Shown: piece by piece, positions 2,590 to 25,649 of the stretch
Numbering within the stretch: position 1 is the first letter of the stretch
Layout: each line of letters opens with the position of its first letter
From: Quercus robur
Taxonomy: Eukaryota; Streptophyta; Magnoliopsida; Fagales; Fagaceae
Length of the DNA stretch: 64,000 nt
NCBI RefSeq assembly: GCF_932294415.1
Contig: NC_065542.1
Span: 1,691,501 to 1,755,500, forward strand
Reading direction: 5' to 3'
Program-made: the position numbers and the translations under genes
The notes under the pieces: model-generated
Database searches by the model: none
The model's input: only the letters and a program-made list of their open reading frames with translations
What the model was told of the DNA's origin: nothing

Positions 2590-2599
2590 CTGCACAAAG

Positions 2600-3680
2600 T
2601 TCACTAACCATTAGCATCAGAAGTTGAAAATCTGTATACACTGCCAATAACCAAAAAACCTTCAAACATAGTCACTTGCCTTACGAAATGGAGAAACTAT
2701 AAATAAATATAAGAGCTGAGGAAACAAGAAGAATATTGTCAACAAAGAATCATTGATGCAACAAGTTTGTAGCTACTGCTGAAACAGAACATAAAGCAAG
2801 ATAGTCGTATTGTTGTTAGTTTTTGGTGGTTTACTAATAATAAGATTCATTGCAAAAATGTCTTATTTACAAGTAACAAAAAAAAGGAAAATCATTATGT
2901 GCATGGTTTTTTCAAAGGTAGCTCTATTTACCTTATAGTGTTCCTGCTCTCTGTATAATTAGTTTGAAAGGAGTGATTGGACAAATTCAGCTGTGGCTTT
3001 TACTAAGTTCCTGAAATAGTTGCTAGCTTTCTCTTGATCTAAATAGTTCCTCAACTTAAACACTGGTTATAATTTACTCACTTCTGTTTCCTGGCCGTAA
3101 GTCGTTGATTGGTTGAACTCCAGTTCAAAACTTGTTCAGGATTTATTCTCGTAAGGCTCTCCTATCCCACTTAAGTGTTATGGCAAAGCCTAGGACTGCA
3201 ACTGTTTATTTATTTATAAACACTATTCCTCACCTATTTACCCCAACCTCATATTTCTCTTCTCTAACTCTTCCTCACCTAAGCAGTATATCTGTACATG
3301 TAAGTAATGGACATAAATAATGTAAGCTGCACCCACATGTAAGAGGCAAATATTATAAATATAGCTAGAAGCATGAGACAGATTGTATGTCTCCGCCTTG
3401 AATTATAAACCCAAAGGGTGACCCTCGAAGCTTTTTCTTGGACTCCTCAAGACACAACTTTTACATTTCTTGTATAAATATATACCCTAATAATAGAGCA
3501 GCAAAATTCTTTGTATCATCAAAGGACAATATTTCATTAATGTACAATGAAATAAGTCAAGATTCAAAGAAATAAAAAAAATCATTAATAAAAGAAATAA
3601 TTTAGATTCATATGTTGCAAAGAAAGATGAATAAGTCCAGAAAACTAAGAAACAAGCAACATATAACCCAAAATTACAAC
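2600..3680. other. Intergenic or intronic sequence, nothing recognised
   Basis: AT-rich sequence with no convincing exon, RNA gene or complete mobile element. The degraded relative of the foldback arm at about 2705-2800 is the only repeat noticed. Confidence 0.5.
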
Positions 3681-3684
3681 GTAC

Positions 3685-3936
3685 ATCCTTTTTGTCAACT
3701 CGATGCTGTTCCGGAGGTTGGCAAAAGAAATCAGCATCAGCACGCATAGGCCAACCCAGCCGAAAACAATCAACTGACCTACAATTCACGCCAACATAAC
3801 TTTTAATATACTACATTCTGTACATACGAAACTCATATAAACAAAGAAACACATAGTACCAGAAATCTTCATTTAAATCATCATAATTTCTCCACTGAGA
3901 ATGCTTTGCTTTTCCTTCTTTGCTTCTTTTAGCTTC
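3685..3936 (-). pseudogene. Callose synthase (CalS1/3-type GSL) fragment, two exons
   Basis: Exon a (3936-3860) reads EAKRSKEGKAKHSQWRNYDD then LNEDFW. Exon b (3778-3685) reads SVDCFRLGWPMRADADFF then CQPPEQHRVDKKD. They join within the tryptophan codon (TG|G) across a clean GT..AG intron. The pair matches the conserved segment just before the first membrane domain of plant callose synthases, plasma-membrane enzymes that make beta-1,3-glucan. The family usually has EYFW where this copy has EDFW. Callose synthases are about 1,900 residues long, yet no flanking exon such as the next NFVEIRSFWH-type exon appears on either side. I therefore infer a captured or left-over fragment rather than a working gene. 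Confidence 0.8.
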
Positions 3937-3939
3937 CTG

Positions 3940-4720
3940 TAAATCACAAAACAAATGGTAAGACAAAGCAGTCATATATCAATATAATAACATGCATTTT
4001 TATATACCCAAAAGAATGTGCAGAAGCAACACCTTTGCTATCGTCAAGAAAGGTATGGGAGTTACCACCTTCTTTAGAAAAGACTCATCGTCACCACCAT
4101 AGGCGGATGAAGATTGGTGATCGTCATGACCTTCTTGATGTATTCCTTGATAACCGAGTTACTATACTATATGAATGCCTTCTTTCATCAACAGGCTGGA
4201 AAGATACTTTACTATCAATGATTACTTTGCTCAACGAACCTAAACAACAATATCATTTTTACCTGAAATATAGAAGAGTGGAAGACCTTGAGGAGAATAT
4301 AAATGAAGGAAAATCTAAAAATGCAAATAATAGATAGGAATCAAGGGAGGGAGGCTGATGATCAATCCGCCAAAGACAAGAAGAGCAAGAAAATTCTGAA
4401 GAAAGTTATCACTCAAACCTTAAATGAAAACAAAAACAAGAAAAGACAGAAACAGATATAAATAGTTCGATCCTCATCATAATAACAAATAAATTTCGTA
4501 TTCTATTGATTTATTTAATTTTTTAAATTACATATGGAAAATCAGGGTAACAGTTTTATCCTTATCAGCCAATCCTTATACATGTACATACAATCTAGAG
4601 ACACACTAAATGAACTTACGAAAATTTTGGAGACCGATATAAATAGTCCAATAGTCAAAATGGAACTACATCAAGACTAAGTTATAAACGAACCATGCAC
4701 AAAAACAGGCAGTAACAACA
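3940..4720. other. Spacer with no recognised gene
   Basis: The sequence lies between the callose synthase fragment and the stop codon of the TPR gene. A 100-codon plus-strand reading frame at 4035-4337 has no recognisable domain and no splice or start context. It could belong to degraded mobile DNA. Confidence 0.4.
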
Positions 4721-4724
4721 GCAG

Positions 4725-6986
4725 TTACCGTCTTGAGTAACGATCTACAAGTGCCTTAGCTTTCTCTGGTGCAAAGAACCGTGCCTGCACATAGGCCATA
4801 GATACTAGCTTACATCCTTGATGTGTGCAATGTGTGTACGTTCTATATAAACATAATATAAGTGCCAAGGTTCCACAAAAGCATGATAATCATTGCAATT
4901 ACATAAAAAGATACAAAACGAGGTGACCCCTTCCCAAAGAGATCCATGGTTTTAAACTTCAACTTGTACCCAATCAACCAAGCTTATACAAAGAGGAGTC
5001 AAAAGTCGTGAGGCTTTGCATTTGAGATACAATTATTCCATCAAAGTCCCTTAAAATATTTTAGTTGCAAATTAGGAAAATTCAACACTTCAAGAGTTGC
5101 TCTAAACTTCAAGCCCTCCCATGTTAGTTCAAAAGAGGAGAGTTCAAAAATAAATAAATAAATAATTTTGAGTAGAATATAAAATATATGCACAGGCATG
5201 CTCATTACCTGTCAACATAAGCTGTAATCTCCCCAACTCTTTTACCATTATATACTTGGAAAATAGTCAGCATGGATCCACAATTACACAACAAAACAAC
5301 CATAACAATAATAAAGAAAAGAAAAGAAAATAATGCATCCACAAAACATAGAAAGCTGTAGTGCCTATTGTAGCTTGCTGGTATTACTTGTGCGATTGAG
5401 GTAGAAGAATGCGCATATGAACATAGACACATACATGATTACATGTATATTGACACATAAATATACATATATGCATTTCAAAAGACACTATTATCGATGC
5501 ATACATACATGTGTACATGAATTTCCATATACATGCATATGCCAATAAATATTCACATACTCACCTGAATAAACATCCTCTCTGCATCTCCAACTTTACC
5601 GTTTTCTTTCAAAATGATTCCCTGCAGAAGAATAATACCGATCAAATTTATATGCAAGTTCAGTTCATCTCAAAATATCTAAACTAGAAGCATAACCATC
5701 AACCAGCGGGAAAGAGGGAATCAAAACCAATAAAGAACAATGACGGATTGTGAAGAACAATGTCAGTAACCATTTTGCATGCATTTTTTGGACTCTGCAC
5801 TCCATTCAATCAGTAACCAGTTCTTATTTTTCCATTGGCAATTTCCTCCATATTCTTGAAAGATTCTATTCTCTCATATCATGCATTATTCAAACAGTAG
5901 TCACACAAATCAGAAAGAAGCATGAACACATAATTATGTAACAAATTTTTTTTTTTTGATAGGTTAAATTATTCTTAGATATAGTATCCAGAAACAATTT
6001 CCATGATCCCAGGATTTATAAAAGAATACTTAACAATTAGAATAGAGTGGATAGTGGATGTGCGTGATTTAAATATGTATTTACCTGTATCTACATGCAC
6101 TCAAAGTACTAATTTTGTTTTAATAAAATATAAATAAATAAAAAATCACCATGGATGTTTTACCAGTTTGTAAAGACATACACACCATTTTAATTAAAAA
6201 GCTTCATGATTAATTTTGCAGGAACCGCCGGTAATGAAGATTCATAGAGAGAACTCCTATTAGTGAGATTCTTGTAATACTACTAATACCCCATTTTTAC
6301 CATATGCTATACAGCATACATGCACAACACAAACACAAAATCTACACTAGGATCTAGGGTTTTTCCCCTCAATGTACATTCATGAAACTAAAATTTCAAA
6401 CAATCTTGATGAAATATTCCTTTTAGCCCCTGCAATTAGATAACATGGCGAAGTTGCAAAATGACTATTAATATAGATGTTAAATTACCGATTGTCCCAA
6501 AAGTTTAAACTATTGGAATATAGTATATTTAATCATTTAACCATATACTTCTAACACTCTCCTTCACATGTGGGCTCAAACTCTCTTTTAATAGGTGAGG
6601 CACAACATATGGGATTTTAAATGGGAGGTAGAGTAGAGGGGACATGAATCGAACTCGAAACCTCCTACTCTGATACCATGTTAAATTACCGATTGTTCCA
6701 AAAATTTAAGCTATTGGGATATTGTAAATTTAATCATTTAACCACATACTACTAACTATATATATATATATATAATCTTTTTTTTCTTCACTAAAGTGTC
6801 TAGCAATGCAAAGGTTTCATACATTGAGATCTTTATAACTGAATACTTTGTTCATTATCATATACATTTTGTACCTGGTATTGGCATATTTTGATGAGAT
6901 ATGCTGGTGTATTGGTAAAAAATAATTTTCATCTTAGTTCTAAATTAACAAACATTCCAAGCTATCTGGCCAGAACATTCATTGCA

Positions 6987-7023
<37 letters not shown>

Positions 7024-7141
7024 CCTTAGCTAAGTAACCACGGAAGTCATCTGGGTGACTAGAGATGAGGCGGTCGTAAACAGATACAGCATCACTGATA
7101 TGGCCCCAATCTGAATATGCTTTACCAAGAAGTAATTCAAC
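4725..7141 (-). CDS. TPR-repeat protein, C-terminal three exons (5' part missing)
   Basis: Three phase-0 exons read VELLLGKAYSDWGHISDAVS... (7141-7025, 39 codons), GIILKENGKVGDAERMFIQ (5621-5565, 19 codons) and ARFFAPEKAKALVDRYSRR plus a TAA stop (4784-4725). Together they give about two tetratricopeptide repeats, with the typical spacing of W/G/Y...A and P..A..., and a basic C-terminus. TPR proteins are helical scaffolds for protein-protein contacts. The sequence style resembles plant plastid-targeted TPR proteins, but the targeting region is not in view. All splice sites look good and no stop interrupts the frame. Upstream exons were not found between 7.15 and 17 kb, where a PMD element begins. 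The gene may be cut off, or its 5' part may lie much farther away. Confidence 0.75.
6478..6757 (-). mobile_element. TRIM (miniature LTR retrotransposon)
   Basis: Two direct repeats of about 79 bp (6478-6556 and 6679-6757) begin TGTTAAATTACCGATTGT on the plus strand. Read on the minus strand they have LTR-like TG..CA ends. Next to the plus-strand right repeat is CTCTGATACCA, which on the minus strand is TGGTATCAGAG, the classic primer-binding site for initiator methionine tRNA, placed directly after the LTR end AATTTAACA. The interior is only about 120 bp with no coding capacity. This is the structure of a TRIM. It sits in an intron of the TPR gene, in the same transcriptional orientation. A clean target duplication is not visible because the right flank is a TA repeat. 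Confidence 0.8.
6991..7021. repeat. (GA)n microsatellite
   Basis: About 15 uninterrupted GA units lie immediately downstream of the splice donor of the TPR exon at 7141-7025. On the transcribed minus strand this is a CT-rich run at the start of the intron. Confidence 0.95.
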
Positions 7142-7144
7142 CTG

Positions 7145-8840
7145 AAATAATTCTCATTGCAAAGAAAAAAATGGCAAAGACAACCAAGAAAAAAGCCACT
7201 GAAAATCAGATTTCATTTAAGAGAAAGCAATTAAAGGATGTCTGATGATGAAAAACATTAAAAAAAAAAATTGTCAAAATTTTAAATAAAAAAAACATTA
7301 AGGAACCTGAAACATTCAGCTATCATCTTAATTTGGTGCATGTATTATTGAGATTTTTTTCACATGTACTCTTATATATCCACGGAAAAAAGGATTTAAA
7401 AATTGAGGATACAACAAATATAAAAAAGGAAAGGCATGTTTGAACATCACATATAAAGGAGCTCTAGATTTATTTTCTAGAATAGGTTAAAAAGAATTCC
7501 TTTTGCAAGCTTTCAAATTAGATTGGAGTGACAAACAAAGAGAAAGCAGAAAATTAGAGAAAGTAGCTAACTTGTCTGTACACAAATAATACAAAATGTC
7601 AAATAAAAAAGATTGAGATGCATTCCCTCTTTTTTTTTCCTCCCACAGCTATTAAGGCTTTCTTTATAGAGAGAATAAGAGAGGAGATGAAATGTTGTCT
7701 TTCCCCATACTATTTTAAAATTTTAATATCATTAGTATTTCTTTTTTTGAGAATCAAATTTGAATACCATTATTATTATACATTTTCAATGATATCATTC
7801 CTGAGGCTGCTTCTTTAGCTAAAATAAACAGAGGTTTTGAGCCCTTGTCACAGCCCCAAAGGACCTCACTTCTGAGGAGGCACACAATGGAAAAGAATTC
7901 GGATCTTACTATAGATGAGTTTTTAAAAATAAAAGAGTAATAATCAATTTTTTGTTTTAATAATAGGGTTGATGACTTGGTCTTACTCCTTTGTTATTCA
8001 GTAGCCTTTCACTTGCTAATTAGTAAGTATTATAAACTAAAAACACGATCACATAATAACATGATTCTTGGCTGCATTTAACAAAGAAAACTAATGTAAA
8101 AAATTGAATGCATAAATGCTGTTTCACATATATGACTTATCATTGTCATATATATGGTATCTTATTATTACTCCATAAGTATTAAAAGAGATGATGACAG
8201 CATTTTTGTGAAGGCATGCTTTCTAAAAACATTATCCACATAAAACCAAAGTCATTTTCATTGGTTGAACAAATGTAATACTTTAGTGAATCTAAAGGGC
8301 TAAAACCTTAGTATTGTAAGTTCTCTAGAACACTCCCTGAAAGGCAAATCAATTATGATGCAACATATTTTAAAAGGCTACACCCAAATCATAATCAAAT
8401 TTCCTTCAAGTTGCTGATTTATGATGCTTAAAATCCTCCCTTTTCCTTTTACTTTTGTAATTTTGGAATCTTAGAAGTGTAATCTGTGATTGAGAAACTA
8501 CAACTCACTTGATTGAGAAACTACAACTCACTTTCGCTGCTGCACTACAACACTGTTGAATTGTTGGTAACCTGCCAATTAAAAAAACCATAAAGTTAGA
8601 GCATGAAAGAGAATAGACAATACACGAACTGTGAACAATAAGGTGCTTTTAAGTACCAACTACAGCAGAAGGAAGCAGCAGTGTAGCACTGTACATGAAT
8701 ATCTACCTCCAGCTAATGTCCCAGCTGTACCTTTCACCTAGTTCAAATAATGTACATTAAAACCATTTCGGCCACAAAAATAATTTCATGAACTTTTCAA
8801 CACCAGCTTGAAATGTCCAGTTAAAGGAATAAGGTATGAT
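7145..8840. other. Gene-poor stretch upstream of the TPR exons
   Basis: AT-rich sequence with no exon that continues the TPR gene. A 24-bp direct tandem repeat (GATTGAGAAACTACAACTCA) occurs near 8490-8536. The 3' side of the PMD element probably starts around here, but I could not place its end. Confidence 0.4.
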
Positions 8841-8845
8841 TTCAG

Positions 8846-9643
8846 TTACCTTTTTTGAACCTTACGCTTTCTCGTATAATAAGGAGGAGGTCTTGCATGT
8901 CCTTCGTCAGATGCCTCCGGCCCAGCATTGTGTCCATGTTTGTGCCCCCCTGTCCCACATAGAGGTGCCTTAGATATGCGTTTTGGCCGACCTTCTGCCG
9001 CTGCAGCTAACCCAACAGGCTGCTCAGGCTGAACATGGGGTGGGTCAACGGCTGAAGAAGGGCCAGTGGACGTACTGTGGGAAGGTGGGAGGGGTTGCAA
9101 GTCAGGAGGGGTTTGATCAAGACCCAGGTCAAATGATGGAATAGGTGATAGCTCAGGAAATGACCGTGGGGTGGGTGGAGGGATGGTGGGACTAGGGGAC
9201 TCATGTGGGGTGGGTGGAGGGATGGTGGGACTAGGGGACTCATGTGGAGTGGCTAAAGGGATGGTGGGGGTAGGGGATGGATGTGAGGTGGGTGAAGGGA
9301 TGGTGGGGCTAACGGATGGATGTGGGGTGGGTGAAGGGATGGTGGGGCTAAGGGATGGATGTGCGGTGGATGGAGAGGGATCGAGGGTAGGGAGAACCTG
9401 AGGGGTAGCAACAGGCGGACGAGAGCAACGTCCGGTAGGAGCTGTGCTCGTGCTTGGGCTCTCAGTAGTGCTTGGCCTCTGAGTAGGCGCTGCCGCAGGA
9501 GTAGCTGCCGGTTCGTTCGGGCCCTCAGGTTCCCGAGGTCGTACACGGCCAATCTCATGCACTGCCTCCAGCACATTAATAATGTCATTGTGGGCCTCCG
9601 TACCCACTGGGTGACGACGCATCATACGGACATATCCTTCAAT
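8846..9643 (-). repeat. Pro/Ser/Thr-rich coding minisatellite in PMD exon 5
   Basis: Between about 9165 and 9370 the exon holds roughly seven units of about 33 bp encoding PTIPPPTPHESPS-like motifs. Two units (9171-9243) are nearly identical. The reading frame stays open through the array, so unit gain or loss in steps of 33 bp changes tail length without a frameshift. Confidence 0.8.
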
Positions 9644-12600
9644 CTGCACATAGAAAAACCAAGTATATTAATAATGCAATATCAAAATGAAGAAAGGAAA
9701 TCAATAGATTAATATAGGCCGCAAGGTGAAGGTTAGTTAACTTCTTGATTTCTTTAGGACATGGAGATTGAGCTATGTACAGAAAGGTTGTAATGTAGTT
9801 GCTTTAAGGTTAGTTACATTTTCTACTAAAATGAAAGAGTGAGGGTGTAGTTGGATGAGACCCCTGCCTTTGTGTGGCAGGTGGTGGATACGGATGTAAT
9901 AAGAATAGTTTCTATGAATAAATTATGATATTTCTTATACAGAAAAAAGGGATTGAAAAAGTTAGTTTAGGGGTGTTTGTGCAACTAGAATAAAGTTCCT
10001 CAGGATATCAACGCATTTCATCCTTGCTTGATCATATCAAAGTTATCTAAAGAGATGAAATATTATTTCATGGTTCCCTATTAGAAATGACTAACACTAT
10101 GTAGATAAATAGTTCTAACACATCATAGGCAGGATTCATAATCCATAACATTTTATTCAATGTACATTCATGATAAAACCAGAAAACAAGATCTAGTACA
10201 CTATCTTTGCCAACAATTCTTTCTCGTCTCTTGAACAACATGAACCTGTGTCACTCAGTGAAATATATGACAAAGACCTGCAATCATCAAAAATAGTGCA
10301 TGACAACCTAGCTTAACTTCAAATCAAATTGTCCCTACTGAAATTCTTAGAATTCTGTTAAGCCCAGCACAACTTTGATTTTGTACTCATATTTTTTTGA
10401 TGATGTATGTAAATGAGAAGAAAAAAAAAATTATGCTTAATATAAAACCACTCTAGTTCTATCAATGGTATTCCCTTGACTCCAGCCCCCCAAGCCTTTC
10501 TAAATGAAATCTGTACTTATCAATAAATTATTTTAGAGCCAATGAGCTAGTTGCACAATTAGATTGAGTCTGAATTAAATCATGTATTAAAATTTGGAGA
10601 CTATAAATAATAAATCAGTAATTCCCTAATCCCCTACTCTAACTGATTGATACAGTAACCACTAGCCAACTCTCACACCCAACTCACAGCTACCAATAAC
10701 TGCCAGTAATTGTCACTAACTGATTTCCCTTCTTCTCATTATAATACAATAGCAATACAGTCCCTAACAGTTGTTGCCACTGCCATTGCTAGTACCACTA
10801 CCATCACTTGGCAGTGTCACAGCCATCACCACTGCCACAACTAGCACTCATCGGCATTACCACTACGACCACCACAATCATCACCACTGCTAACATTATG
10901 TTACCATATGATCATCAAATGACACATTCCCTACGGAATTTGAACTTGGGATTTGGATACTTGATTCCAAGTTCAAAATTCTGCAGGATTTTGGGATTAC
11001 CTTTCTTGTTAACACAAGCAAAGGAAACCAATATTGGGAACTATCAAGTTACAACTTTGAGTACAATTTCACCTCAAAATTCCTCATCTAAACACAATTT
11101 TTTTGAGAATTTCGAAATTCTTCTAAAAATATAAACCCATGATAGGTTCAAGTAAACTGATTTTCAATGATTTAGTACAGAAGTTATGTTGAGTATATTG
11201 GGAGCTTTCAACCTTGTAATCTAATCTAAGATTAACAACAGAATTAATTAGAGATGAAACAAGAGGTTAAGCATGAGCATAGTGTAAACTATGAACCACA
11301 GAAAGAAAGATTATTGTTTGTCTATAAGCAATCTTACGCAGACAACAATTTAAAAGGGAGGTTTGATGCTAAGCAAACATTGGACCACATAAGAAGAGTT
11401 CTCTAAACAGTGGTAAACTAAGTAACAAGTACGGTAAAATGTAGAACACGTGGAGAAGTTACCATTACAATGAATCTAGCACCGGGGATATCGATAAACC
11501 TTCGAGTTATCCTTGTGAACCAATCGAAGTACTGGTGCTGTAGAGGCATATCACCAAGCACTGCTTCACAACGATGTTGAAGGCGATGACCCCACTCCGT
11601 GAGATGCATAGCATGTCTCCGCATCCAATCAACACCCATCTTCCCCCTCAAATCAATGGCATGAAGCACCGGGTCCGTGTTAACATGGCGGGGAATTTCT
11701 TGGATCATCCCAAATTGCCGAACGACACGATCCGGTGTATGTTTCTCTACTAGATGGAAACATACAAGCGGCACCATTGCCGTCCACACTGCCCTCCCTG
11801 CAACGCACCACGGCGGAAGGTTCTCGTATTCATCTTCATACGGCTGCCACACCACCTACAACAGCCCAAAAACAAATATGCAACACATTAGGCAACTATC
11901 TTTCTATTTCAAAGTTCAGCAAATATATATCTTCTTGTTGAACATGTTGAACAAAGCATTTTCATACCTGGTTTGGCAACATTAACGCTATTTGCTCCCG
12001 ATACCTGTCCCTAAAGACCTGGGCGGGCCTATTTTTCTTGTTTGGGACCCACACCCACCTACAATCAAGAACAGGGGATCAATATCTACAACTTCCCAAG
12101 TAAGATAATATTATGATTAAAACTATAATGTAATCAGATATAACTACTAATAGAATCTTATAGAAATTTACTCAATTAATAATATCACTAGAATAAAAAA
12201 AAGTCCTTAAGCCAAACAAAGCACATACAAGCCACATGACAATGACAAAAAATTAGAGTATATTAACGTAATCATATATATTGAAACTCTGTTTAACATT
12301 TTTAAATGTTGACATAAATGTTTTCACATACCGTTTTAAATAAAAATGAAAATTTATATTTTAAGTTACATGATTGTAAGCTTAGGTAATGATCACATAT
12401 TGTAAATGAAGTTACTAAGGTACAGACTTACTTAAGGGACAGTGGACCACGCACTGGAGGACCATAAGCACCCACTGGTGGGCCACGCTCAACTGCCGGG
12501 CACAAAAAGGGGAATCTGGCCCACGCCCAATACTGGACCAACAGTAAACACCCACCAATCTGACTGGCTCTCTTATCGCTTGCCCTGCATAACTGTCGGT

Positions 12601-15600
12601 ACAGCCATGCAAGGCAAGCACTTCCCCAACTATACCTTCGTGGGTTGCGAAGGTCTTCCAACTGCTGCACCCACATTAGATGCACCCTATCACCGGATTT
12701 GTCCATGAAGATTGTGTCCCCCAATAGTGCTAGGATGTAGCATCGTGCGTACCTATGCACTTCATCGTCTTCAGCATTAGGCGGCAGTGGATTGGCAACT
12801 TGCTCCAAAAGCCGTTTGATGAGAATCCTCTGGCCAGTACATTCCAGATGGTCTTCATTGGCAGGTCGAAAGCCAAGGTACTCATCGCACACAGTCTCCC
12901 ATATTTTTTGTGTGCTCCCTGTTATAGCGTCACCATCAACAGGAAGTCCAAGAAGAACCTCCACATCCTGCAATGTGATGGTGACCTCACCATGCGGCAT
13001 GTGGAATGTGTGAGTCTCGGGCCGCCATCGCTCCACTAAGGCCGTTATCAGGCCATGATCAATCTCTCTACCCGGAGTCCTGAGAAGTCCCTCCAAACCA
13101 AGTGCCTTAATGATGTCAATCACTCGATCATCCACCATTGGCTCTCGATTCGAGAACTCTTCACTACGGGCACGACATTTAAGGGACCCTGGATCCTGCA
13201 CATAAGAAAACCATGGATTAACATATGACAGCAAATTGAGTGCAATAGAAGTTGTTTATTATTTTTAACTTTGAAAATTGAAATGATACTTTAGAGTAAC
13301 CCGAAATCGACTGTCAGAAACTCGAGATGTTACTAACCCAATTTCTTTCAAAACCGGACCTATTAACTAGATAGTTGGGAAATTAGGCCTATTTTCCAAT
13401 TTCGTTCATTTTCACTCAACCAAAGGCATAAAGTAGACAAATGGTAGGAAGAAAATTCATGGGTGTTAACTGTTGGAGTGAAAATATATATTTATATTTA
13501 TAGATAGTAAACATAATATAACAACAACCCAGTCTCAACATTCTCTAATCTTGTTGGGAAGCAAGTAGGAGTAGGTGACCGCCCGGCCACCTTTGTCCCA
13601 TACTGCCATACATAGTATACTATAGGGTCTAATTCCCACAACATACCCCTATACTACACATAATATAGGACTGCATTTGATGTAGAACTGCTTGAAGTAC
13701 TTCAAGCACAAAGTATAGGGTCTAGTTTCCCGAACATACCCACTTTTCTACACATAAATAGTATGGCATTCGATGAAGAACTGATTGAGGCCTTGAAGTA
13801 CTTTAAGCACAATTGCAAAACTTGGGTGTTAGAGGTTGTAATTTCGGATTTTTAATTAAATTCAATCATGTATCAATGAATTACAAAAAAAAAAAAAAAA
13901 AAAAATCAATAAGAATTAAATTCAATTGTGTAGTTTATTGATCAATACAACTATATATTTAAACAATTGTCCTTTTGTTTATACAATAAAAAGATTATGG
14001 TTTTTTTCTTCCTTAAGGGCATTCAAAGTACTTGTATCTTCGTTTAAACCTTAAATGTTTCTATTGAAAACGCTAGGAGATGTCAATTAATTTCCAAATT
14101 ACAAGACTCTTGACAATATACTTATATCCTTGTCACTATAAAGAATCACAACTAACATAATAGACAATGCAATTTAATCACTTATTTATTTGTTTGATAT
14201 GATTTTTTTATTTAGATTATTTTATTTAAAAAAAATATTTGATGTAAGGTTTTAAAAAGTTATATATATAAACGAAATAAGTTGAAAATAAATAAATCAA
14301 TCAAACAAACACGTCTCCTTGTTCATAAAAGACACTATAATTCACAAAATGGCAGAATTTTGATAACTTGCCCAATTCAAAATTTTCAGCTGCTAGACCT
14401 AATATTTCCAACCTTTACCAGGATCAATCTTTTTTTTTTTTTTTTTTTTTTTGAGAATTACCAGGATCAATCTTTACCACCCCATTTTTCCTTCAATCAA
14501 TATATGGACCTTACTTGAAATTTGCGTCACTAGTAGTTATTGGCAGTGATAAAAACCATGTTGCAAAAGTTTCATATAGTATTAGCTGTCTCACAAATGC
14601 CTAATCCAACTCAAGACACTTTTTGACCAATGTATATTATCATACATCCAATATATTTCTTTTCTTGCTAATAAAGCTTAATGGCCGTTTAAACTAATAA
14701 CGTCAATGTTTATGAGAATCATTACTTTATCAACTTTTTTTTCAATCAACTATTTGGTATGATGACAAATATATGTATCTAGTACAAATATATAAAGATG
14801 AACATGATTAATTTGTTTTAATTAGGGAATCCACCTGTTAAATCATAATATATCCAATTCAAAGCAGACTATTAAATAATAATAATGAGTAAAAAAACAG
14901 TATATCAAAACTGGATTATATTCCACCATGATTCATTTACAAAAGGGGGTCACCTCAAAAGGGATGAAAGGTGACTAAGGTGAGGTATAAAGGAGACATT
15001 GGATACTTAAAAGGAAATGAGGTTTCGTGGGGGGGTTTTTTCCCTTTGTCTCTATAAATCTCTGTTTGAAGAAATTAAAGAGATACCCAAAAATTGTCCT
15101 AGTATCCAAAGAGACTTAACGTTTGTCAAAGAATCCACCATATAAAAATACTATAATTACTTCTATGGCGTGACCTTTTCCAAGACCAATACAAAAGAAA
15201 AGGGTGACCTTTAGAGTAATACCTTTTTTCTATATATATATAAAAAAAAAAAGAATCATACCTCAAACCTTAAAAAAAAAAAATCCGAATATATAAAACT
15301 ATATAATTTTTATTTATTTATTTTGGTGTCTAATGATTGCTAATTTGCTATTTAAATAATTTTATAATAATATTGCTATGAAGTGACTTACAAATATATC
15401 CAAGCCAACAAAAGTAACTGTAGAAGCATCCAAATATATATTAAAACAAAATGAACGGTAGAAGCATCCAACTATATATTAAAACAAAATCAACGGCCAA
15501 ATATTGACGTGCTTTTTTGCAATTCATTAAAGTCAACACATGAAAACTTTTTCTCCAAAAAAAAAAAAAAACCAGACTTTGTGTGCATGCTCTTCATTTT

Positions 15601-18600
15601 AAAATATTTGATTAGTGTTTTTAATGAAAAATATTTTATTAGTTGATTTAATAGGTTTAATCTTTTATCAATTATCATGGATTTTAATATTAAGGTTGTG
15701 TTTGACATTCATTGAAAAAAGCAAATTTTTTATTCTATTCAACTTATTTTTTACTACTATTTCGGAGTCCCATTGCATATTGGAGTCCCATTGCATATTT
15801 TGGTATTATTTATGGGTCTCATTGTATTATTTCAGCTAATTGTTAGTTTTATCTATAGTACGTTCAGTAAAAAAAATTTCAGTTTTAGTTAAATAAGTTG
15901 TTCTCAAACAAACTCTAAGTGTTTGTTTGGGAACAACTTATTACTAACAAAAATTAAAAACTTTAAGATCACTTACATTAGGAGAGAATAATTTAAAGAG
16001 TGAAAAAAGTTTTTATTTTATTGGTAGTAGAGATTGAAAGAAGTTATCTCCCAAGTATGGTCAATAAATTAATATATATATATATATATTCATTTTATCA
16101 TATTTATAAACTACCATTTTTATACTTGGGAAGTTCATAATTTTATAATTTAATAGTTGAGATGAGGGATTTGAATTTTGGATATCTAGAATTAAAAGAC
16201 CAAAAAATACCAACTAGTTGAGTTACAACTCTAAACTTATGCATATTGGTTTGAATTATGTAACAAAAATAAAGTAACCCAATAAAAGCAATCATCCAAG
16301 CATGAAACATTCCACCCAACCTCAAAACGAAGATAAAGTTAAAGAATTTTCACCATATTCTTTTTTGCTTTTAATTGATATACTACGAACAAAAAAAAAA
16401 AGAAAAGAAAAGCAAAATAGAATTACATAAAAAGGTCTACAATTAATACAATATGTTATATTAAGTCCCATAATTTTATTTTATCAATTAAAGTTTCAAA
16501 AATATAAAATCATTTCAATTTGAAGTATATGTCTATCTCCATTATTAAATTTATAATCTGGATAATAATAGAGCAAGAAAAGGCAAAAGTTTATTAATTA
16601 AAGCTGCATTTCTCTTATGATTTGTTTATAAATTAATTTGGCAGCAACTAAATAGAAATAATATAGAGAGAAAACTCAAAATAAAGAAAGTTTCACTTAG
16701 ATTAAGAGAGTGAGTATTAGAAAATGGTTTGGCAAAAAAATTTTAAAAATTGAAATTAGAAGAGATGGTAAAATATATAATTTATTAACAGTTTTAATTT
16801 TTTTTTTTCCTGTTTCATTATTGGCCAAAAGAATGTAATTATGAAAATGAATAGTGGAAAGGACAGTTTATGATAAGTTTAAAACCTTAATGGACAAAAT
16901 GAAAAATTACTACAATAAATTAAGAGGTCGATTAAAGACATAATGACCACGTTTACAAACCAGCAGGACTATGATGTGGGCAAAATAGTAATTTCGCCAC
17001 CACAAATGAAATTTATTTATGTATTTTTTGATAACATAAATGAAATTTATTATTCGTACACGAGCGCAAACTTACTTTAATATATTAAAAAAATATATTT
17101 ATATTTTTTCAATTTTGGTTTTACGGGTTTCACATTCAAAGATCCAAGAAATTTCCAAACTGTAAAAGGAAAAGGAAAAATAGAAAATACAAGAGAATTG
17201 GAATATAGTTCTCACATTTCTCACATTGATTCTTCACTGTGATTCTCTGTGCTTTTTTTTTTTTTTTTTTTTACACTACTCATATAATTTTCAACTACTT
17301 ATACCTGAATTGGGTATGTTTTATTCCGAACTAATTTCACAGCGTTTGGTCACCAATATACTCTTAAATTCACAACCTTTATGTGAGTTCATTTTTTGTT
17401 TTTTGGGTTTTCTTTTATCTGAGTGATTTCAGGGTCTGATTTATGCGAAAGATTGAAGATTTTTTCTGGGTTTGATTGGAAAAGAAGTCTGGAAAGTGGG
17501 GTTCATACAACTTCTGAGCTACCGATGCTAGATAACCGGCAGGTTCAGAAGAATGCTATGCGTAATCAATCCGCAAACAACATTGAAGGTAGGACTGAGT
17601 TTTCGTGCACCCTTTGAGGTGTACGGAGATCTGATTATAGTTTTGTTTTAAGGAATATGTTTTATGGTTTTTGGTGTTTGGTTTTGATCATGGTGGTTTT
17701 GTTTTAACTATTGTCAACTTTTCTTTTTTGTATTTATGGTTTTAAGTTTGAGATGGTTGTGTTTTGTATTAAGTGGGGGGGTTGTTGTTTTGATGAAGTT
17801 TGATCCATGGTACAATGCATATTGAGGTTTGGAAGATTCTGGTTTTTGTTTTTGGTTATAATGAATTAAGTGGTATTTTGCCTTGTTTAACGGGTTGTGG
17901 GTTTTGAGTTTGATGAACATATGTGGTTGAAATGAATGTTGACGCTACTTATCTTGTTTTTGTTGTGATCAATGGTTAAATATATGTATTTTAAGTTTGA
18001 AGTCTATATAGAGATTGTTTGGAATTAGTTCGCTGGCCTTATCCTTCTATGACTGATGATGACATGTCGGTTTGTGGTTTTGAGGAAATTTAATAACACC
18101 CAATTAATTTATAACACCCACCATGGATTAACATAACCATGGAATAACATACAACTTATAAACATACAACTTATTATTAATTTCTAAAAGCTAGTTAATG
18201 ACTTCATGCTAACTAAGAAAATTACACTTTAAAAATATTTAGGTCATAAAATCTCTTATTGGCATCAATGTTAAACATTCGTTTTTTCTAAATAAACATG
18301 TAATATTCATAGAAAGAAAAGACTTAGAAACAAATCACAGGGGGAGGGAATTAATCCCTTCTCTATCTTGTGATTTAAAACGAAAATTTAGTGAGGAAGA
18401 GATAGTGTTAAAATGTAGACACAAACCCGATTATGTATGTGCAATTTTGGAAATTGACCATATTATAGATGCATGCAGAAGTACCTTACAGAGTAAAGAA
18501 AGGATTTGAAGTGCTGCACTTGTACTTCTGCACAGTTTTAATATATATACATGTTTGTAAGTAAGAATTGTTGGAAGCCCATGTGTTTGTACTACACGCA

Positions 18601-21600
18601 AGGCAAGTGCACTAAGGTAAGCCTTAACTCCTAACCCACCAACCCCATCACTCTTAAACCCCCATTTTTTGCTGCATTTGATGTTTATCTATCTCTCTAG
18701 CTTCAGCTTTTGGTTCTTCTATCGTGTACATGTGTTTTTTTTGTGATTGAATAGCCGTTATGTACTATTGTTGTGAAACAATAATATTTTTTTCTTTGTT
18801 CTCTATTTTGTCTTTTGGGTTATCAAACTTGGCTTATAATTGACCATGTCGTATTCAATACATATGTCAAGAACTATTGAAGTATGTGACTGTATAAAAA
18901 CAGGTACATAGATAATAAAAAGGATGGAAAGAAAAAAGGGAAAAAAGGAAAATTTTTGGATATGGTGATTGGTGAAGTCATTAGTTGAAGACCCTCTAGA
19001 ATTTCAGTTATTTGTAAACGCATGTTGAAACCAATAGCTTTATCTTAAGTAAAGGCAAAACAAAAGGTGCAACTATGACTATGGTTCTAGTTTCAAATTA
19101 TGAAAGTGTTGTTGTCTTCTAAGAATTAGGGACACTTCATTTGGGATGCCGTGTACGTTTGGGACACTTCTGCACCCGTGTCCCTGTCGTATCATTTTTT
19201 TTTTTTAAATTGTGGGTCACGAGAGATATACTTATCTTTTATTTTTTTTAGTTTTAATCTTGAACACTTATATACTCTTATATTCTCATTATATTCTGCA
19301 TGATATTGGTGATGGGTCGAGCGGTTGAAGTTTTGGCAAGACTGTTGTTGTGGGGAGACACCTCTTGCTGTCAACTTTCTTCAATTGTTTAGATTTTTCC
19401 TAGATAAGGAGGCAAGTGTGGCTGAATGAAGTTCAGTAATGGGGTCTTTTTTGGGATGTTAGTTTCTTTTGTTGGGGGGGGGGGGGGGTGGTTTCATGTT
19501 CAGGAATTGCAGGCTGTGTTGAGCTTCATGTATACCATATATGGCTCTCCAGTAAGGGGGTTTGGGGAGGATAAAATGAGCTGGAAACCAATATCATACA
19601 AAGATAGCTTTCCATACAAAGAAAGTTACCCTTTTTGGGGCCTTCATCTTCCAAACACTCTTCCAAGGGAAAGGAGAACCTGCCCTAGAGCTCAAAGCCG
19701 TATAGAAAGTTTTGGCTTAAAAACCATGACCTGTGTAAGGGACCCTACATAATTTGTTTTCACCAGTCTACCTAGTTTTGGCAGAATAAATAGTATGAAA
19801 GAAAGAAATAATGTTTGGTTTAACTACGGGTCTAGAACAGAAAGTTCTTTTCCTCCTTGAGACATATATCAATGCAGCTTTTGTGGTGTTCCTTGATGCA
19901 AATAAGACTAAGAGCTGCGTGGAAATTTTGAGCATCTCCCATGGTCTAACATAGTTACTATTTCTTCTTCTTAGCTTTCATCTGCAGGGTTTATTCGCTT
20001 GCCAAGGTTTGACATGGCAATGGCTAAATCTGAGGCTAACAGTAAGCCTGTCCTAGCTGCTGAAGATATCAATATTGTCACTGTGTAGGTTCTTTTGAAC
20101 ACACTGTCTAGGTTCTTACTGTTTAATTTCTCCTGCTAATATATTCAAATTGTTCCCTAAAGTCAAATATTTAATAATTGTCACTGTTCACAGCTATGGT
20201 AGAATATACTGCTTGCAAGTTGATAGAGTTGCGATGCTCCTCCACTCATATAGGTTTTACCGTGATGCTGTCATACAACAGGTAAGTTCTTGCCCAATTA
20301 TTTTCCAGTCCTTTGATTCACTCAAGTTGGATTTTCAATCCATTAGTGGCAGACTAGCTGGATTCGTTTAAATAATTATCATGCCTTTAAAGCACATTTG
20401 AAAACCAATTTAGGATGTTGGTTATAGAGTATACAGACAGGCTTTATTACAATTTCTAAATGATAGAGTTGAACATGCATGAGTTTATTTTGTGATATGT
20501 TCATCATTTTGGTAAATTTATTTGACATTGTTCAACTAATGTATGGTTTTATTTTTTTTAATGAATCATAGCCTTCAAATGCTACTAGTAGGAGTGAGCA
20601 CTTGAGCCGGCCCACCCAAAAACCGACCCGACCCGAACCGACCCGATAGGTTTTGGGCGGGTCTGAGAATATTCGGGTCGGGTTTCGGGTTATATTTTCG
20701 GGTTATTATCGGGTTAGGGTCGGTTTCGGGTCATATAAATACCCTATGTCTGAACCCGATTTTTGTGTTTGTGAACAAAAACCCTACGTGGTCTCTATGC
20801 AATCTCCGCCTCCCTCATCTCTCTCTTTATTCCTCAAAGCCTTACAAGCCAATTTCAAGCTATTTGCTCCATTTGTCTCTGTGTAAGTCATAGAATAAAT
20901 AGCTAAACCTATTTCTTGTTATCTCTGTTTCTTGTTAATAGAGTTGGGTTTTTAATACTTTCGGATTTTGGGGTTTTTTTCTATGTGAATATTCTGTTTG
21001 GGTTTGATTTTCTTGCGTTTTGTGATGTGGGTTTTGGCTTGAATCGTTTTTTTTAAGGACCCATTTTGATTTTTTTTCAGGTTTTAAACTAAAGAGCTCT
21101 TCTGCCTCTCTTTGGGGTTTCACTATTTTGCATTTTCGCCAAGGCAAAAGACCTCTGCCACTCCCATCTTTGAAAGCTTTACTCTGTTTCTCTGTTGGAT
21201 TCGTGTACTTTTTAAGTGTTCTGTTTGCTTTATTTTCTTAAACCAAAGAACCCATGTCCTTTAAGTATGTCATGTTTTTTGCTGATATATTCACATGTAA
21301 TGGTTTTGATTTTAGCTAAAAATTCTATTTATTGACATTTGCATATAAATTATGAAAGGGGAAACTATATGTATACCTTTTATTTATTCATCCAAAGAAT
21401 AAACAAACTTGGAAACTATCAGAACAGGGTTCTTTGAGCTAATTGAGGAGTTATTTCAACTGTTTTTAAAGATTAAGACGTTGTATCTGCTGTGGTGCAG
21501 TCACTGTTTTGTGTAGTTTTCTGTGTTGGCAGAGTTGTTACCAAGTTTGTTGCATGTTCTATTTCAATGTTTGGTGTTGTTAGTTTGCTATGTTGATGCA

Positions 21601-24413
21601 ACTTTTGATGCTCTTGTTCCACCCATTTCGATTATTTCTTATCCATGTGTGAAAATGTCTGCATTGAGCAGTAAAACTAGCACATGTTAATGACTGCTAG
21701 CAAATATCCGTCATGGGCATATATACACATTAAACTACCCATTTTGCATCCTTAAATGCTTATGTATCAGAAATATCGACTTGACAAGTAGTTGGAGTAA
21801 ATAGGTTGACCCAGCTATATAATGCTCTAGCGTGTACACAACTGTGTTATAAATAGAAATAGTTGATTTCCATATGCTCTCATGTACCACTTGGTTTATT
21901 GGGTAAAGCTTTAAGCTAATAGGTCCGCATCTTTCTGATATGCTAATTATAGTACAAATATACACAGGCAATATAGTAGAAGTGCAAGTGCAAGTGCAAA
22001 TGTCTTTTTAATTGTTTAGTTGTACATTTTTTTGTGCAATATGTTTTTGGAATATCAGGTGGAAGTTATTTTTAAGCTCTGTCCAAACTTAAAGGAGCTC
22101 TCTCATTCATCATCCAATGTTGTTGATTCTATTTGAACAAATTGCCTTAACTTTGCATTGGTCCTTTGTTTATCTAGCTTTTGGTGATGATTAAAATAAA
22201 AAGTTGTATTCGTATCCCTTGTTTTTTTCTTCTTTTTGGGCAGTCGCTAGCTGAACTTAGAGAGGAGGAAAGTTTGCTATTGACGGAAAGGATAAATTTG
22301 AAAAATGTATGTTTCTTTGACTTCTTTTCCTGGGATATCTTCTTGTTTCTCCTATGTTGTTTCCTTAATCTAAATGTCTTATTGGAGATACCTAAATACT
22401 GAAATATTAATAATTTACTAATTCATTGAGCAGGAACTGCCAGCTTTGTGTCTCACTCTTGAGAAACAAAGAGCTACAAATGACAGTTTGAAGAGAATTA
22501 AGGTTAGTTTGCCTCTCTAATCAATTTCTTTGTCGTTTCTTTGATTAAAGGTGTTAGTACCAATTATAGCATCCATTCATAATTTAAAAGAATATTTCTT
22601 TTTTGCAGCAACCCCATGTGTATGAAGCCAAGTTTAATGTTGGAGCTTGAAGAAGTGCTTACATGCAGGATTACTGAAAAGAAACTTTTTTTTGACAACT
22701 AAGCATTCTGCCCAGCAATGGATTGCTGTAATCTGTTTCACGACTAAGCATTTTGTTGTAATGTAAAGCTTTAGATATCTTGCCATAGTTTTTCATTTCC
22801 GGCTCTTTAGTGCTTGTGTTGGTTTGTATGCATTTGTTTTGCTCTCTCAAAGTTCTGACACTGTTTGGAGAGTTCACAACAGAATGAAATGAATTAGAGT
22901 GGATAGGTTATAAATGAATGGAATGTGGAGGACTATATTATTTTCTTTTGTTTGGTGTGTTTTGGAGTTGCATAAGAGAAGGAATGGAAAGAAGAGATAT
23001 CATACTTGCACCTCAGATGGTTCGGTGAAGATATTGTTGGTTTTGTGTTTTTATTGTGTGTATCCATTTAATAGTCATAAATGTGGCTTGCTAAGGAGAT
23101 TTTAGCTTTTATTTTCATAAATTTTTTTTTAAATGATTTCATATTGGATATTTTTTAAATAGTATAATTTTTTTTTAAAAATGATTTGATATTGGATTTT
23201 TTTTTTTTAATGAGATTATTATTACAAAAAAGAATATAGTAACTAAATGCTCATGGAAACCAACAAGCAGCAGCAGCAAAAAAAAAAAAAAAAAAACCAA
23301 CCCGTGACCCGGAAAACCGACCCGATTTCAGACCCGATTTTCCGGGTCGGATCGGGTTTCAGACAAACAACCCCGATTTCTGTCGGGTCGGGTTTCGGGT
23401 CATAGTAAACCCGACCCGAACCGACCCAATATCAGTCCTAGCTACTAGTCACCTCATCAGAAAAAGCTCAACTGATGTATCTATTACATGCCGCATTTTT
23501 TGTCTAAATATTCAAAACTCATTGCAAAGAAGAGTACAATACCCAAAATTTTGTTGCTAGACTCTGTATGGTTTGATGCTATATAAACCTAGGCAAGAAG
23601 TGCCTGGTAGAGTATCTATATCATGATAAACTATCACTAGCACCAAAAGCTTGAACAAATAAGAAATGCTGAATTTAATTAATCTCTTTGGGGGAAGATT
23701 TTTTACTTGTGATAATCTCATCGAGCGAGGTTTCTACTTAGCTGGTTGGTGTTACATGTGCCAGTGTAGTGGGGAGACGGTAGATCATTTGTTGATCCCT
23801 AGTGATATTGCATATGCTTTATGGATCTAGTATTTAGAGCATTTGGGATTTAATGGGTGTTACCAAGAAGGGTAGTTGATCTCTTGTTCACTTGGAGGAA
23901 TTAGTTCAGGGAGCACTTATCAAATATTTGTAACTTTTCCCGTTATGTTTGATGTGGCTATGGTGGAAGGACTAAGATAGTCGTATTTTTTAAGATTCAG
24001 AATAATTAAAGGTCTAGTTGGAATCATTGCTAATTTGAACTCATGTTTGATTGGTCTAGAGCGTCGGGTCTTACATGTAGTAACTCCCTTCTAGAAATTA
24101 ATAAACTGAGAAACTATTACTTACAATTCACTAGCCATCAATAAAACAATATAACAAGAGCAACAGCCTATGATTCGTTTTTTCTAAATAAACATGTAAT
24201 ATTCATAGAAAGAAAAGACTTAGAAACAAACTAAAGTCCAGGTTCAAAAAACAAAATTCACCACACACAAAAAAAAGTGAAATCTTTAGTGGTGTGTTTT
24301 ACCTGCCCATTCCAAATGGCTTCTGATCGATGGTTGGGCTGCAACGTCAACACTGACGTGTCAATGGGGCCAGGCTGCGCATGGTTAATCTCTCCAGCAT
24401 TTGCAGCAGCCAT
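8846..24413 (-). CDS. Plant mobile domain (PMD) protein, MAIN-like / 'phosphatase 7 long form' type
   Basis: Five exons join in phase: 24413-24303 (37 codons, starts MAAANAGEINH, ends EAIWNGQ), 13195-12432 (starts DPGSLKCRARSEEF), 12058-11968 (WVWVPNKKNRPAQVFRDRYR...), 11855-11463 (VVWQPYEDEYENLPPW...) and 9643-8846. The total is about 719 residues. GPID.SVL.LQ..HRSEAIWNG followed by a domain with RWRPETHTFHMPHGEVTITL, DVEVLLGLPVDG and CYILALLGDTIF is characteristic of the PMD, found in plant MAIN/MAIL proteins and in many transposon-borne copies. The last exon is a Pro/Ser/Thr-rich tail of repeated TIPSPTPHPS-like units ending in a basic stretch. Intron 1 is 11.1 kb and contains another gene on the opposite strand plus a LINE piece. 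No stop interrupts any exon. Whether exon 1 is still spliced to exon 2 cannot be told from sequence. It is probably element-derived rather than a host MAIN gene. Confidence 0.85.
9650..11460. other. PMD intron 4, with a degraded retroelement-like patch
   Basis: No exon was recognised. The stretch at about 10600-10860 (CTCACAGCTACCAATAACTG and repeated CCACTGCCA) looks like an old LTR-type remnant on the minus strand, but no boundary was found. Confidence 0.4.
13304..13407 (-). repeat. PMD-element terminal sequence, copy A
   Basis: This 104-bp stretch is repeated in the same orientation at 25543-25646 with one mismatch seen (C versus G in GAAA[C/G]TCGAG). In both places the similarity stops at TTTCCAATTTCGTTC, which looks like the outer end of the element. 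Here it directly abuts the end of PMD intron 1. This copy therefore lacks the promoter and exon 1 that accompany the copy at 25.5 kb. Confidence 0.85.
13408..17200. other. AT-rich spacer with small repeats, no gene seen
   Basis: It holds a two-unit tandem repeat of about 100 bp at 13618-13812 (TATAGGGTCTA...CTACACATAA...GAACTG) and a two-unit 41-bp repeat at 15418-15498 (GTAGAAGCATCCAA). There is a short repeat of GGAGTCCCATTGCATATT at 15763-15800, and inverted ends AGTTGTTCTCAAACAAAC / GTTTGTTTGGGAACAACT at 15894-15939 that look like two MITE ends meeting. A (TA)n run lies at about 16070-16090. None of the reading frames is convincing. Confidence 0.6.
17525..22650 (+). CDS. Small coiled-coil protein, six exons, family not recognised
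   Basis: Exons are 17525-17588, 19988-20084, 20194-20281, 22244-22306, 22434-22502 and 22609-22650. All have GT..AG borders and compatible phases (1, 2, 0, 0, 0), giving 423 nt, or 140 residues plus TGA. The start is the ATG of MLDNRQVQKNAMRNQS, the first ATG in frame, after a T-rich leader near 17250. The middle (VAMLLHSYRFYRDAVIQQ) and the following SLAELREEESLLLTERINL and ELPALCLTLEKQRATNDSLK form a continuous charged helix, probably a coiled coil. The C-terminus is QPHVYEAKFNVGA. I cannot name the family. A hAT-type element starts 307 bp after exon 3, and exons 4-6 lie inside it, so either the gene is a chimera or the element carries part of this gene. The whole gene is embedded in intron 1 of the opposite-strand PMD gene. 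Confidence 0.65.
18277..18334. repeat. 58-bp direct repeat, copy 1
   Basis: A 58-bp stretch beginning ATTCGTTTTTTCTAAATAAA is identical to 24173-24230 in the same orientation. The second copy lies in intron 1 of the PMD gene, close to its exon 1. Flanking bases differ on both sides. The pair brackets 5.8 kb containing most of the plus-strand coiled-coil gene. Confidence 0.9.
20581..23448. mobile_element. Non-autonomous hAT-type element carrying gene exons
   Basis: The element spans 20589-23440 (2,852 bp) and is flanked by a perfect 8-bp direct repeat GCTACTAG (20581-20588 and 23441-23448). Its ends are TAGGAGTGAG and the inverted TAGGACTGAT, as in the hAT superfamily (8-bp target duplication, TAGGG-like ends). 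Both subterminal regions (20605-20740 and 23295-23432) are packed with CCCGACCCGAACCGACCC / GGGTCGGGTTTCGGGT motifs, presumed binding repeats. No transposase is present. Inside is gene-like DNA: a leader-like block with a GTAAGT donor (about 20770-20884), T-rich introns and the last three exons of the coiled-coil gene. It looks like a gene-capturing hAT element. Confidence 0.8.
23690..24060 (+). pseudogene. LINE (L1-type) 3' remnant with zf-RVT-like segment
   Basis: The plus strand reads RFFTCDNLIERGFYLAGWCY then MCQCSGETVDHLL...AYALW, which is the cysteine/histidine zf-RVT motif at the C-terminal end of plant LINE reverse transcriptases (W-C-x-C...GE...DHLL...W). The following bases still resemble the LINE tail (RRVVDLLFTWRN) but contain stops. 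Only the 3' tip survives. Confidence 0.75.
24173..24230. repeat. 58-bp direct repeat, copy 2
   Basis: Identical to 18277-18334. It lies 73 bp downstream of the splice donor of PMD exon 1 (minus strand), so it belongs to PMD intron 1. Confidence 0.9.
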
Positions 24414-25320
24414 ACTGCACAAAAATGATAAGCAATTAGTACTAGACATTATTGAAAACAAAAACAAAAACAACCTAAAACATATTGTCAATAATAATAC
24501 ATAATGAAACCACAAAATACAAAATATAAACCAGCATATAATGTATCCGTGAACTTATCATAAGACATTGCAGAAAATCTACTAAATATACATAACCATT
24601 GGATACATTTTACAGGAGACAAGATTTAACACATATCTCAGATGAATCTGATGCATGTGTGTTATCTGCAATCAAATACCCAAATTCATCCCCTTCAAAG
24701 CTACACCACATGTCATGCCATTTTTTTGTCCTCCTTCATCACAATAATATACTCAAACAAAAAGAAATAAAAAAATACTGATGTTATCTAAATGGGTCTT
24801 CGAAATTTGTCTTAAGAACATAAAATTCGAATCTAAAAAACTAAGTGAGAAATGGCATATTTGAAAAATGGGAACGAATTGAAGCAACAATCTGGGAATG
24901 AAGAAGAATGCTTCTTATACAAAAAAAAAAAAAAAAAAAAAATACAAACAAACAAACAAAACGAACTGACTCACCTTTTTTTCTTCTATTTCTTTCAGAT
25001 ACAGCGTAGGTGAGCGAGAGAGTGACTGAGGCTGGGTCGGTGAGGCTGAGAGGGTGAGTGGGTTGGGGCCGGCGTCGGCGACGGTGACGCTGAGAGAGTG
25101 AGAGGAGGAGAGGGTGACTGACAGTGTCGGTTTGCTGAGAGGGTGAGTGAGGCGTTTGACTGATGAGGGAGAGTGAGTGGGTGGGTGAGTGGGTTGGGCT
25201 GGCGTCGGCGACGGTGACGGTGACGCTGAGAGAGTGAGAGAAGGAGAGGGTGAGTGAGGGTGAGCGAGAGTCTGTAGAGGCGTTTGACTGATGAGGGAGA
25301 GTGAGTGGGTGGGCGACTGA
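24414..25320 (-). promoter_or_regulatory. PMD 5' leader region with GA-rich tandem duplication
   Basis: This is the region upstream of the PMD start codon. Between 25010 and 25320 the plus strand is a GAGTGAG-rich sequence with a two-copy direct repeat of about 130 bp. GGCGTCGGCGACGGTGAC occurs at 25072 and 25203, and GAGGCGTTTGACTGATGAGG at about 25149 and 25277. On the transcribed strand it is a CT-rich leader. An A22 run lies near 24920. No conserved protein is encoded here. Confidence 0.6.
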
Positions 25321-25354
25321 AAGAGAGCCTTAAATTCAAAAATATCCTATTAGA

Positions 25355-25566
25355 AATCGACCTTCACACACTCGGTTTCCAGGTCGTGCTCCACGTCAGT
25401 CCACGTCAATGGCACGTGACACCAACATGGAAATCGACTCTCTGATGGTCGATTTTTAGATGGCTGCCACGTGGCAATTTTGCCACATCAGATGTCACGG
25501 ACAACCAAAACCGACTCTGTGAGAGTCGATTTACAAGGCCTAAAATCGACTGTCAGAAAGTCGAGA
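25355..25566. promoter_or_regulatory. Four spaced palindromic boxes near the PMD-element end
   Basis: Four imperfect palindromes of about 24 bp share the plan ATCGAC(T)-spacer-(A)GTCGATTT: about 25355-25380, 25432-25456, 25509-25532 and 25543-25566. The third, CCGACTCTGTGAGAGTCG, is the cleanest. Such spaced inverted boxes next to a transposon end could bind a transposase or a transcription factor, which is inference. The terminal copy A at 13304 retains only the last box. Confidence 0.6.
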
Positions 25567-25646
25567 TGTTACTAACCCAATTTCTTTCAAAACCGGACCT
25601 ATTAACTAGATAGTTGGGAAATTAGGCCTATTTTCCAATTTCGTTC
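25543..25646 (-). repeat. PMD-element terminal sequence, copy B
   Basis: 104 bp matching 13304-13407 with one mismatch seen. It is presumed to be the outer (5') end of the PMD element upstream of exon 1. Confidence 0.85.
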
Positions 25647-25649
25647 TTT

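Follow-up and report, generated by a model that had tools for sequence, protein, structure and literature searches.

Transposons of the hAT superfamily that carry pieces of host genes have been described before, and several published cases resemble the one reported here. One is the Pack-hAT Zm-hAT-TL35758 in the maize gene Zm00001d013112 (Gisby and Catoni 2022, PMC8903248), which likewise lies in a gene, adds exon sequence to it and has an empty site, in that case a syntenic one. There, one exon is made longer and a splice donor is gained, whereas here three whole 3' exons from two donors are predicted from the sequence to be supplied to a gene fragment. The same source describes Zm-CACTA-181, which shares the topology (seven terminal exons of a maize gene model are element-encoded) but is a CACTA and not a hAT, and a merged transcript was not found there. 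In the maize Ac/Ds family, Ds2-22 and other Ds elements are hATs that, as here, carry two exons and the intervening intron copied from a gene elsewhere, although from one donor and, in the passages available, with no mention of an insertion within another gene; break-repair errors are mentioned as a possible origin of the gene fragments in Ds elements (PMC3260210, in the part available). In the Ac macrotransposons and composite insertions of maize p1, hAT ends also mobilize a host exon, but the composites described in the available part of that study consist of linked Ac/fAc and adjacent DNA (PMC9910405), whereas here a single backbone holds unlinked fillers. An earlier note on this DNA had stated that gene capture is far less documented for hAT than for Mutator elements, in agreement with the same Ds study, which calls gene capture rare in hAT (PMC3260210), though such captures are in print (PMC8903248) and the term Pack-hAT is also used in PMC8277862. 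As far as these sources go, both 3' exons provided by Pack-type elements and captured exons in hAT elements are already published (PMC8903248, PMC3260210); the uncommon part here is the presence of two donors and the nesting in a second gene-collecting repeat.

The window analysed comprises 64,000 nucleotides of Quercus robur (C38:1691501-1755500, where C numbers denote contigs and L numbers loci), and the genome searched amounts to 786 Mb in 42 contigs. We consider it highly probable that the window contains a Pack-hAT, internally deleted and holding captured gene pieces, located in the intron of an RMC1 fragment that is nested in a gene-collecting repeat (Table 1).

Table 1. Features of the window that make up the nested element and its surroundings (window positions)
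Feature	Position	Strand	Remarks
Larger repeated unit, this copy	1850..25646		carries RMC1 fragment and hAT; sharp right end at 25646
Exon 1	17525..17588	+	weakly supported
RMC1 fragment, left part	19601..20588	+	99% to RMC1 locus on C35
Exon 2 (RMC1 exon)	19988..20084	+	96/97 to C35
Exon 3 (RMC1 exon)	20194..20281	+	88/88 to C35
Left 8-bp target duplication, GCTACTAG	20581..20588		single copy at empty sites
Pack-hAT element	20589..23440		2852 bp; TIR TAGGASTGA
5' hAT backbone	20589..21634	+	common to siblings on C5 (L030, 94%) and C2 (L031, 91%)
Captured piece from C1:37.15 Mb (L035)	21628..21996	+	97.6%
Captured piece of gene D (C5:33.79 Mb, L032)	22001..22534	+	94% over 534 bp; two exons, flanking intron
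Exon 4 (D exon)	22244..22306	+	63/63 identical
Exon 5 (D exon)	22434..22502	+	65/69 identical
Filler between D and RBM39-like pieces	22535..22568		34 bp, including a short local repeat
RBM39-like gene 3' end (C6:22.69 Mb, L033)	22569..23000	+	96.6-98.4%; also in L030 and L031
Exon 6 (RBM39-like last exon)	22609..22650	+	42/42 identical
3' hAT backbone	23001..23440		match to L030, L031 and L034
Right 8-bp target duplication, GCTACTAG	23441..23448		single copy at empty sites
RMC1 fragment, right part (intron)	23449..24176	+	match reaches 23688 on C35, 24176 on C3

The borders of the element are well defined. It begins with TAGGAGTGA and ends with TAGGACTGA (read inward from its last base on the other strand), words of the CGGGTC/GACCCG type are concentrated in the outer 150 bp or so at both ends, and over the whole window and both strands GCTACTAG is confined to the two positions that flank it. 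Among 207 TAGGA...TCCTA pairs spaced 50-6000 bp apart in the window, identical outer 8-mers were found in one, whereas two cases in total arose in 200 windows simulated to keep the dinucleotide statistics (mean of 383 such pairs each). Two empty sites, on C35 and C3, have the flanks joined around a single GCTACTAG without the element, and their matches to window positions 20589 and 23441 overlap by the 8-bp word plus one chance base. The 2.85-kb hAT with TAGGA ends proposed earlier is therefore borne out by the unique GCTACTAG pair, the empty sites and the ends of its siblings, and its 8-bp match is not a coincidence. Since the C35 and C3 intron is intact through the insertion point with one GCTACTAG, a finished element was inserted into a pre-existing intron. 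The element thus combines the 8-bp duplication of the hAT superfamily with short terminal inverted repeats common to a transposase-encoding relative (the ends of L030 are alike). Elsewhere in the window, a second, GC-rich hAT-like element was noticed by eye at 30994-31590 (TAGGGGTGACC...GGACAACCCTA), flanked by TCCTTGGC at 30986-30993 and again at 31591-31598, and 51707-53670 is occupied by a tandem array whose unit, estimated from self-match spacing, measures about 81 bp.

A genome search for other copies, as the earlier note had recommended, located the hAT with exons 4-5 at eight places, and two siblings with a related backbone were examined: L030 (C5, 4802 bp, duplication matching in 8/8 positions) and L031 (C2, 2030 bp, 7/8). 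Both show the same kind of ends as the window element. L030 contains predicted transposase ORFs (Dimer_Tnp_hAT, 5.8e-28; hAT RNase-H, 3.2e-16) at the place where the window element has the exon 4-5 stretch, a stretch that is absent from L031, and the backbone of the window element skips from the part of L030 before these ORFs to the part after them. There is no transposase between the ends of the window element, which makes it non-autonomous; it holds DNA of host genes whose sources are still present elsewhere (gene D and the RBM39-like gene); and it was mobile with the captured DNA, as indicated by one insertion with a duplication at the RMC1 intron. The eight places with exons 4-5 all share the right flank as far as matched, and none was seen to be another, independent insertion of precisely this form. 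Taken with the donors and the empty sites, the siblings confirm one of the possibilities raised at the outset, a gene-capturing (Pack-type) hAT that gave rise to a chimeric reading by insertion.

The earlier note had also proposed that the element holds the 3' exons of the very gene it interrupts. Instead, exons 4 and 5 come from D and exon 6 from the RBM39-like gene. In the gene model of D, drawn by eye from parts of the gene, exons with VAVNGETNSNKRSRKRK and MSDDEWVKEAMTDDTVV precede the matched exons, which are followed by HDLQSQQNEK...LPDLNLPFDDDSRMS; no Pfam family above the cut-off was found for D. Apart from D and the eight places, a genome search with exon 5 returned one weak, unrelated match. 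RBM39 structures were the best four of eight PDB matches to the tail of the RBM39-like protein (top E 4.6e-4). Because this tail is present in both L030 and L031, its capture came earlier; the acceptor that precedes it in L030 is CAA, not CAG. L030 also carries the neighbouring D exon (L030:4225-4594, 96.8% to L032), so the hAT family met D more than once, or once as a longer piece, and the D exons of the window may derive from an older, longer capture and not directly from D. In L030 this exon lies directly upstream of the transposase ORFs (L030:4589-6253), where it possibly replaces the N-terminal part of the transposase. The search for an intact parent thus led to separate parents on C35, C5 and C6 (RMC1, D and the RBM39-like gene, each read in parts).

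Exons 2 and 3 belong to RMC1. A PDB search with the 140-residue product of the six exons gave RMC1 (regulator of MON1-CCZ1; E 0.028) as its sole match at E values up to 10, and when the query was exons 2-3 preceded by a few exon 1 residues, the match was to 9l0d (residues 188-226, E 0.0057). These two exons were matched at seven loci (14 matches), namely the window, C41, C40, C5, C4, C35 and C3. A genome search for RMC1_C (PF07035), with five candidates scored, gave one match (C35:23890585-23890794). On C35, exons 2-3 lie about 13.4 kb upstream of this match, and between them we located, with a plant RMC1 probe, an exon with an AG acceptor and phase 0 (GSLPIYSSRIAVSVVDN... / GSLPIYSSRIAVSVVDNVVLVHQNDAKVVILYDIYADSRAPISAPLPLLLRGFPRFN..., GSLPIYSS...). 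Because the RMC1_C match and this next exon lie downstream of exons 2-3, C35 is the RMC1 parent as far as seen, the region upstream of exon 2 having been viewed to about 2 kb. A locus at C3:39.85 Mb was considered as parent and rejected, having gypsy-like protein pieces in its flank (by eye) while the RMC1_C match is on C35. The same intron sequence is present on C35 at the insertion point, followed by a different exon, so that this element-free locus contradicts the premise of a single gene; it comes close to the observation that the earlier note had named as refuting, although it is from the same genome and not from another species. We take the Arabidopsis gene At3g12010 to be RMC1. The accessible part of PMC2075485 lists no recent duplicate of this gene, there named Mic-1-like. 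The insertion does lie in an intron, as had been supposed, but what had been read as a coiled-coil gene is, on the evidence of these alignments, a two-exon gene fragment of RMC1 (19601-24176 minus the hAT). An exact 58-bp direct repeat (18277-18334 and 24173-24230) flanks this fragment with its hAT inside the larger unit, and our guess would be that a staggered break was patched with the RMC1 fragment.

The RMC1 piece and the hAT are found together at C41, C40, C5 and C4, with 98.1-99.6% identity over long aligned stretches; lower values are limited to 1.2 kb on C4 (94.8%) and to the leftmost 0.5-0.9 kb on C41, C40 and C5 (95.5-96.6%). Six copies (window, C41, C40, C5, C4 and C6) have a common right end with different flanks, the C4 copy deviating in the last bases. 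On the left, the match ends at window position 1850, beyond which C40, C41 and C5 continue together, and on C40 the unit reaches at least 24 kb. At C6, C4:10.7 Mb and C2:79.55 Mb the match begins within the hAT (at 20884, 21252 and 21665), and exons 2-3 were not found there in the genome search. The larger repeat multiplied after the landing of the hAT. Pieces of magnesium chelatase H are common to the copies on C40 (L050) and C5 (L051) (CobN-Mg_chel, 3.4e-37; DUF3479, 4.2e-31), so that the large repeat holds several gene pieces, the RMC1 piece among them. Further left on C40 (L052), a topoisomerase piece (2e-10) was read from that copy. Helitrons have a 3' end in CTRR that follows a hairpin, and they make no target duplication. 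The right end of the larger unit is hairpin capable and terminates in GTTC, not in CTRR; its left end was not found, and a terminal inverted repeat was found neither in the window nor in 8.4 kb of C40 (7.4 kb left of the point matching window position 1850). A direct repeat of 107 bp (98%) occurs at 13304-13410 and at 25543-25649; the latter copy forms the larger unit's right end, and the former adjoins ORFs with a plant mobile domain (PF10536) at 11421-11855 and 12431-13255, both on the minus strand (E 2e-21 and 8e-54).

The six exons do join in phase into 140 residues, as the earlier note had it, but exon 1 is a free choice: 56 of the 97 ATGs in 15000-19900 reach an in-phase GT before a stop, and eight ATG/donor pairs are found with a stricter donor. 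The joins 1/2 and 2/3 are not phase 0, whereas the three joins after exon 3 all are, and phase-0 borders occur in RMC1 after exon 3, on both sides of the D exons and before the last exon of the RBM39-like gene. We infer that the in-frame reading is a by-product of these borders. An ATG ORF at 20797, considered as the start of a gene within the element, was rejected by eye (donor phase 2, out of frame with exon 4). Two parts of the chimera, of 110 and 86 residues, had no Pfam match above the cut-off (best E 0.12), and nothing was obtained from NCBIfam with the 140-residue ORF, exons 4-6 or a 29-residue ORF. The apparent single gene is, in our reading, a patchwork of RMC1, D and RBM39-like exons, that is, a predicted chimera. 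If transcribed, it would yield a hybrid mRNA running from the RMC1 exons through the D exons into the RBM39-like last exon and 3' untranslated region.

It is very unlikely that this chimera is a working gene, expressed and selectively kept in the multicopy unit. Of five copies examined, counting the window, four have the 140-residue reading unchanged and the fifth has it in phase, and splice sites are intact in four of five, but the copies are mostly about 99% identical and few changes are expected regardless, so that the unchanged reading is weak evidence for a working chimera. Moreover, the C41 copy has no exon-3 acceptor, the C4 copy is missing 12 bases of exon 2, three of the four changes in exon 5 relative to D alter the residue, and at three other places exons 4-5 occur with no match to exons 2-3. 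A single gene with its own last three exons inside a composite element or macrotransposon that reinserted in phase, another of the possibilities initially listed, would account for the in-phase ORF and for the single outer end pair with its matching duplication, and Ac-based composite insertions with a p1 exon are known in maize (PMC9910405, part available). Exons 4-5 and exon 6, however, come from separate donors that retain their own neighbouring exons, the parent RMC1 locus has a different next exon and the sibling L031 lacks exons 4-5. When inner hAT ends were sought as exact pentamers, no further TAGGA was found inside the element, and the lone internal TCCTA, at 22350, is within the intron copied from D, so the inner ends at both flanking elements that define a macrotransposon were not seen. 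We regard this single-gene composite as practically excluded, since the donor genes and the empty sites refute it. A pair of independent hAT insertions, one on each side of the exons, was rejected as well, considering that the outer 8-bp duplication matches and exact inner ends were not found.

How the pieces entered the element has two candidate answers. The genome contains a hAT family with one member containing transposase ORFs, and the RBM39-like 3' end is already present in the two siblings examined. In the window element the transposase part is missing, and its place is taken by two unlinked pieces, one from C1 and the other from gene D (two whole exons, C5). This element was inserted, with an 8-bp duplication, into the two-exon RMC1 fragment, which sits in the larger repeat present elsewhere with the hAT inside. 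The capture itself probably took place during repair of the gap that a longer hAT left when it was excised or broken, with other sites serving as templates. To judge by the joins of this one element (a 3-bp word at one, a 7-bp word with a single mismatch at another and, at the third, the 34-bp filler with its short local repeat), two unlinked pieces and the absence of exact inner ends fit gap repair in a longer hAT. The same final structure could result if two hAT insertions close to each other had fused, trapping the captured DNA and losing their inner ends, a route proposed by Catoni and colleagues for all Pack-TYPE superfamilies, hAT included (PMC8903248, in the part available). Fusion differs from gap repair in the capture step alone, and the confidences in the two overlap, but we find fusion unlikely: the place of the L030 transposase ORFs is occupied by two pieces from different contigs, and one fusion traps one contiguous stretch, so that two events would be needed. 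The three joins and the lack of exact inner ends also speak against it.

It is very unlikely that a new multicopy gene was assembled from three or more host genes (RMC1, D and the RBM39-like gene) by gene-collecting transposons acting one after the other, two in all, and that it is joined in phase, expressed and multiplied with the outer unit. If so, the spliced product would be a short protein consisting of an RMC1 piece with a coiled-coil tail. As a Pack-hAT nested in a larger repeat, the locus offers an unusually legible case of exon shuffling, in which nearly every piece is traced to a source within this genome. Sites lacking the element are available, as are siblings that have the captured exons and siblings that lack them, and the events follow a nested order. 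The locus adds a hAT example in which two donors contributed whole exons, and it illustrates that nested capture can imitate one normal gene and mislead annotation.
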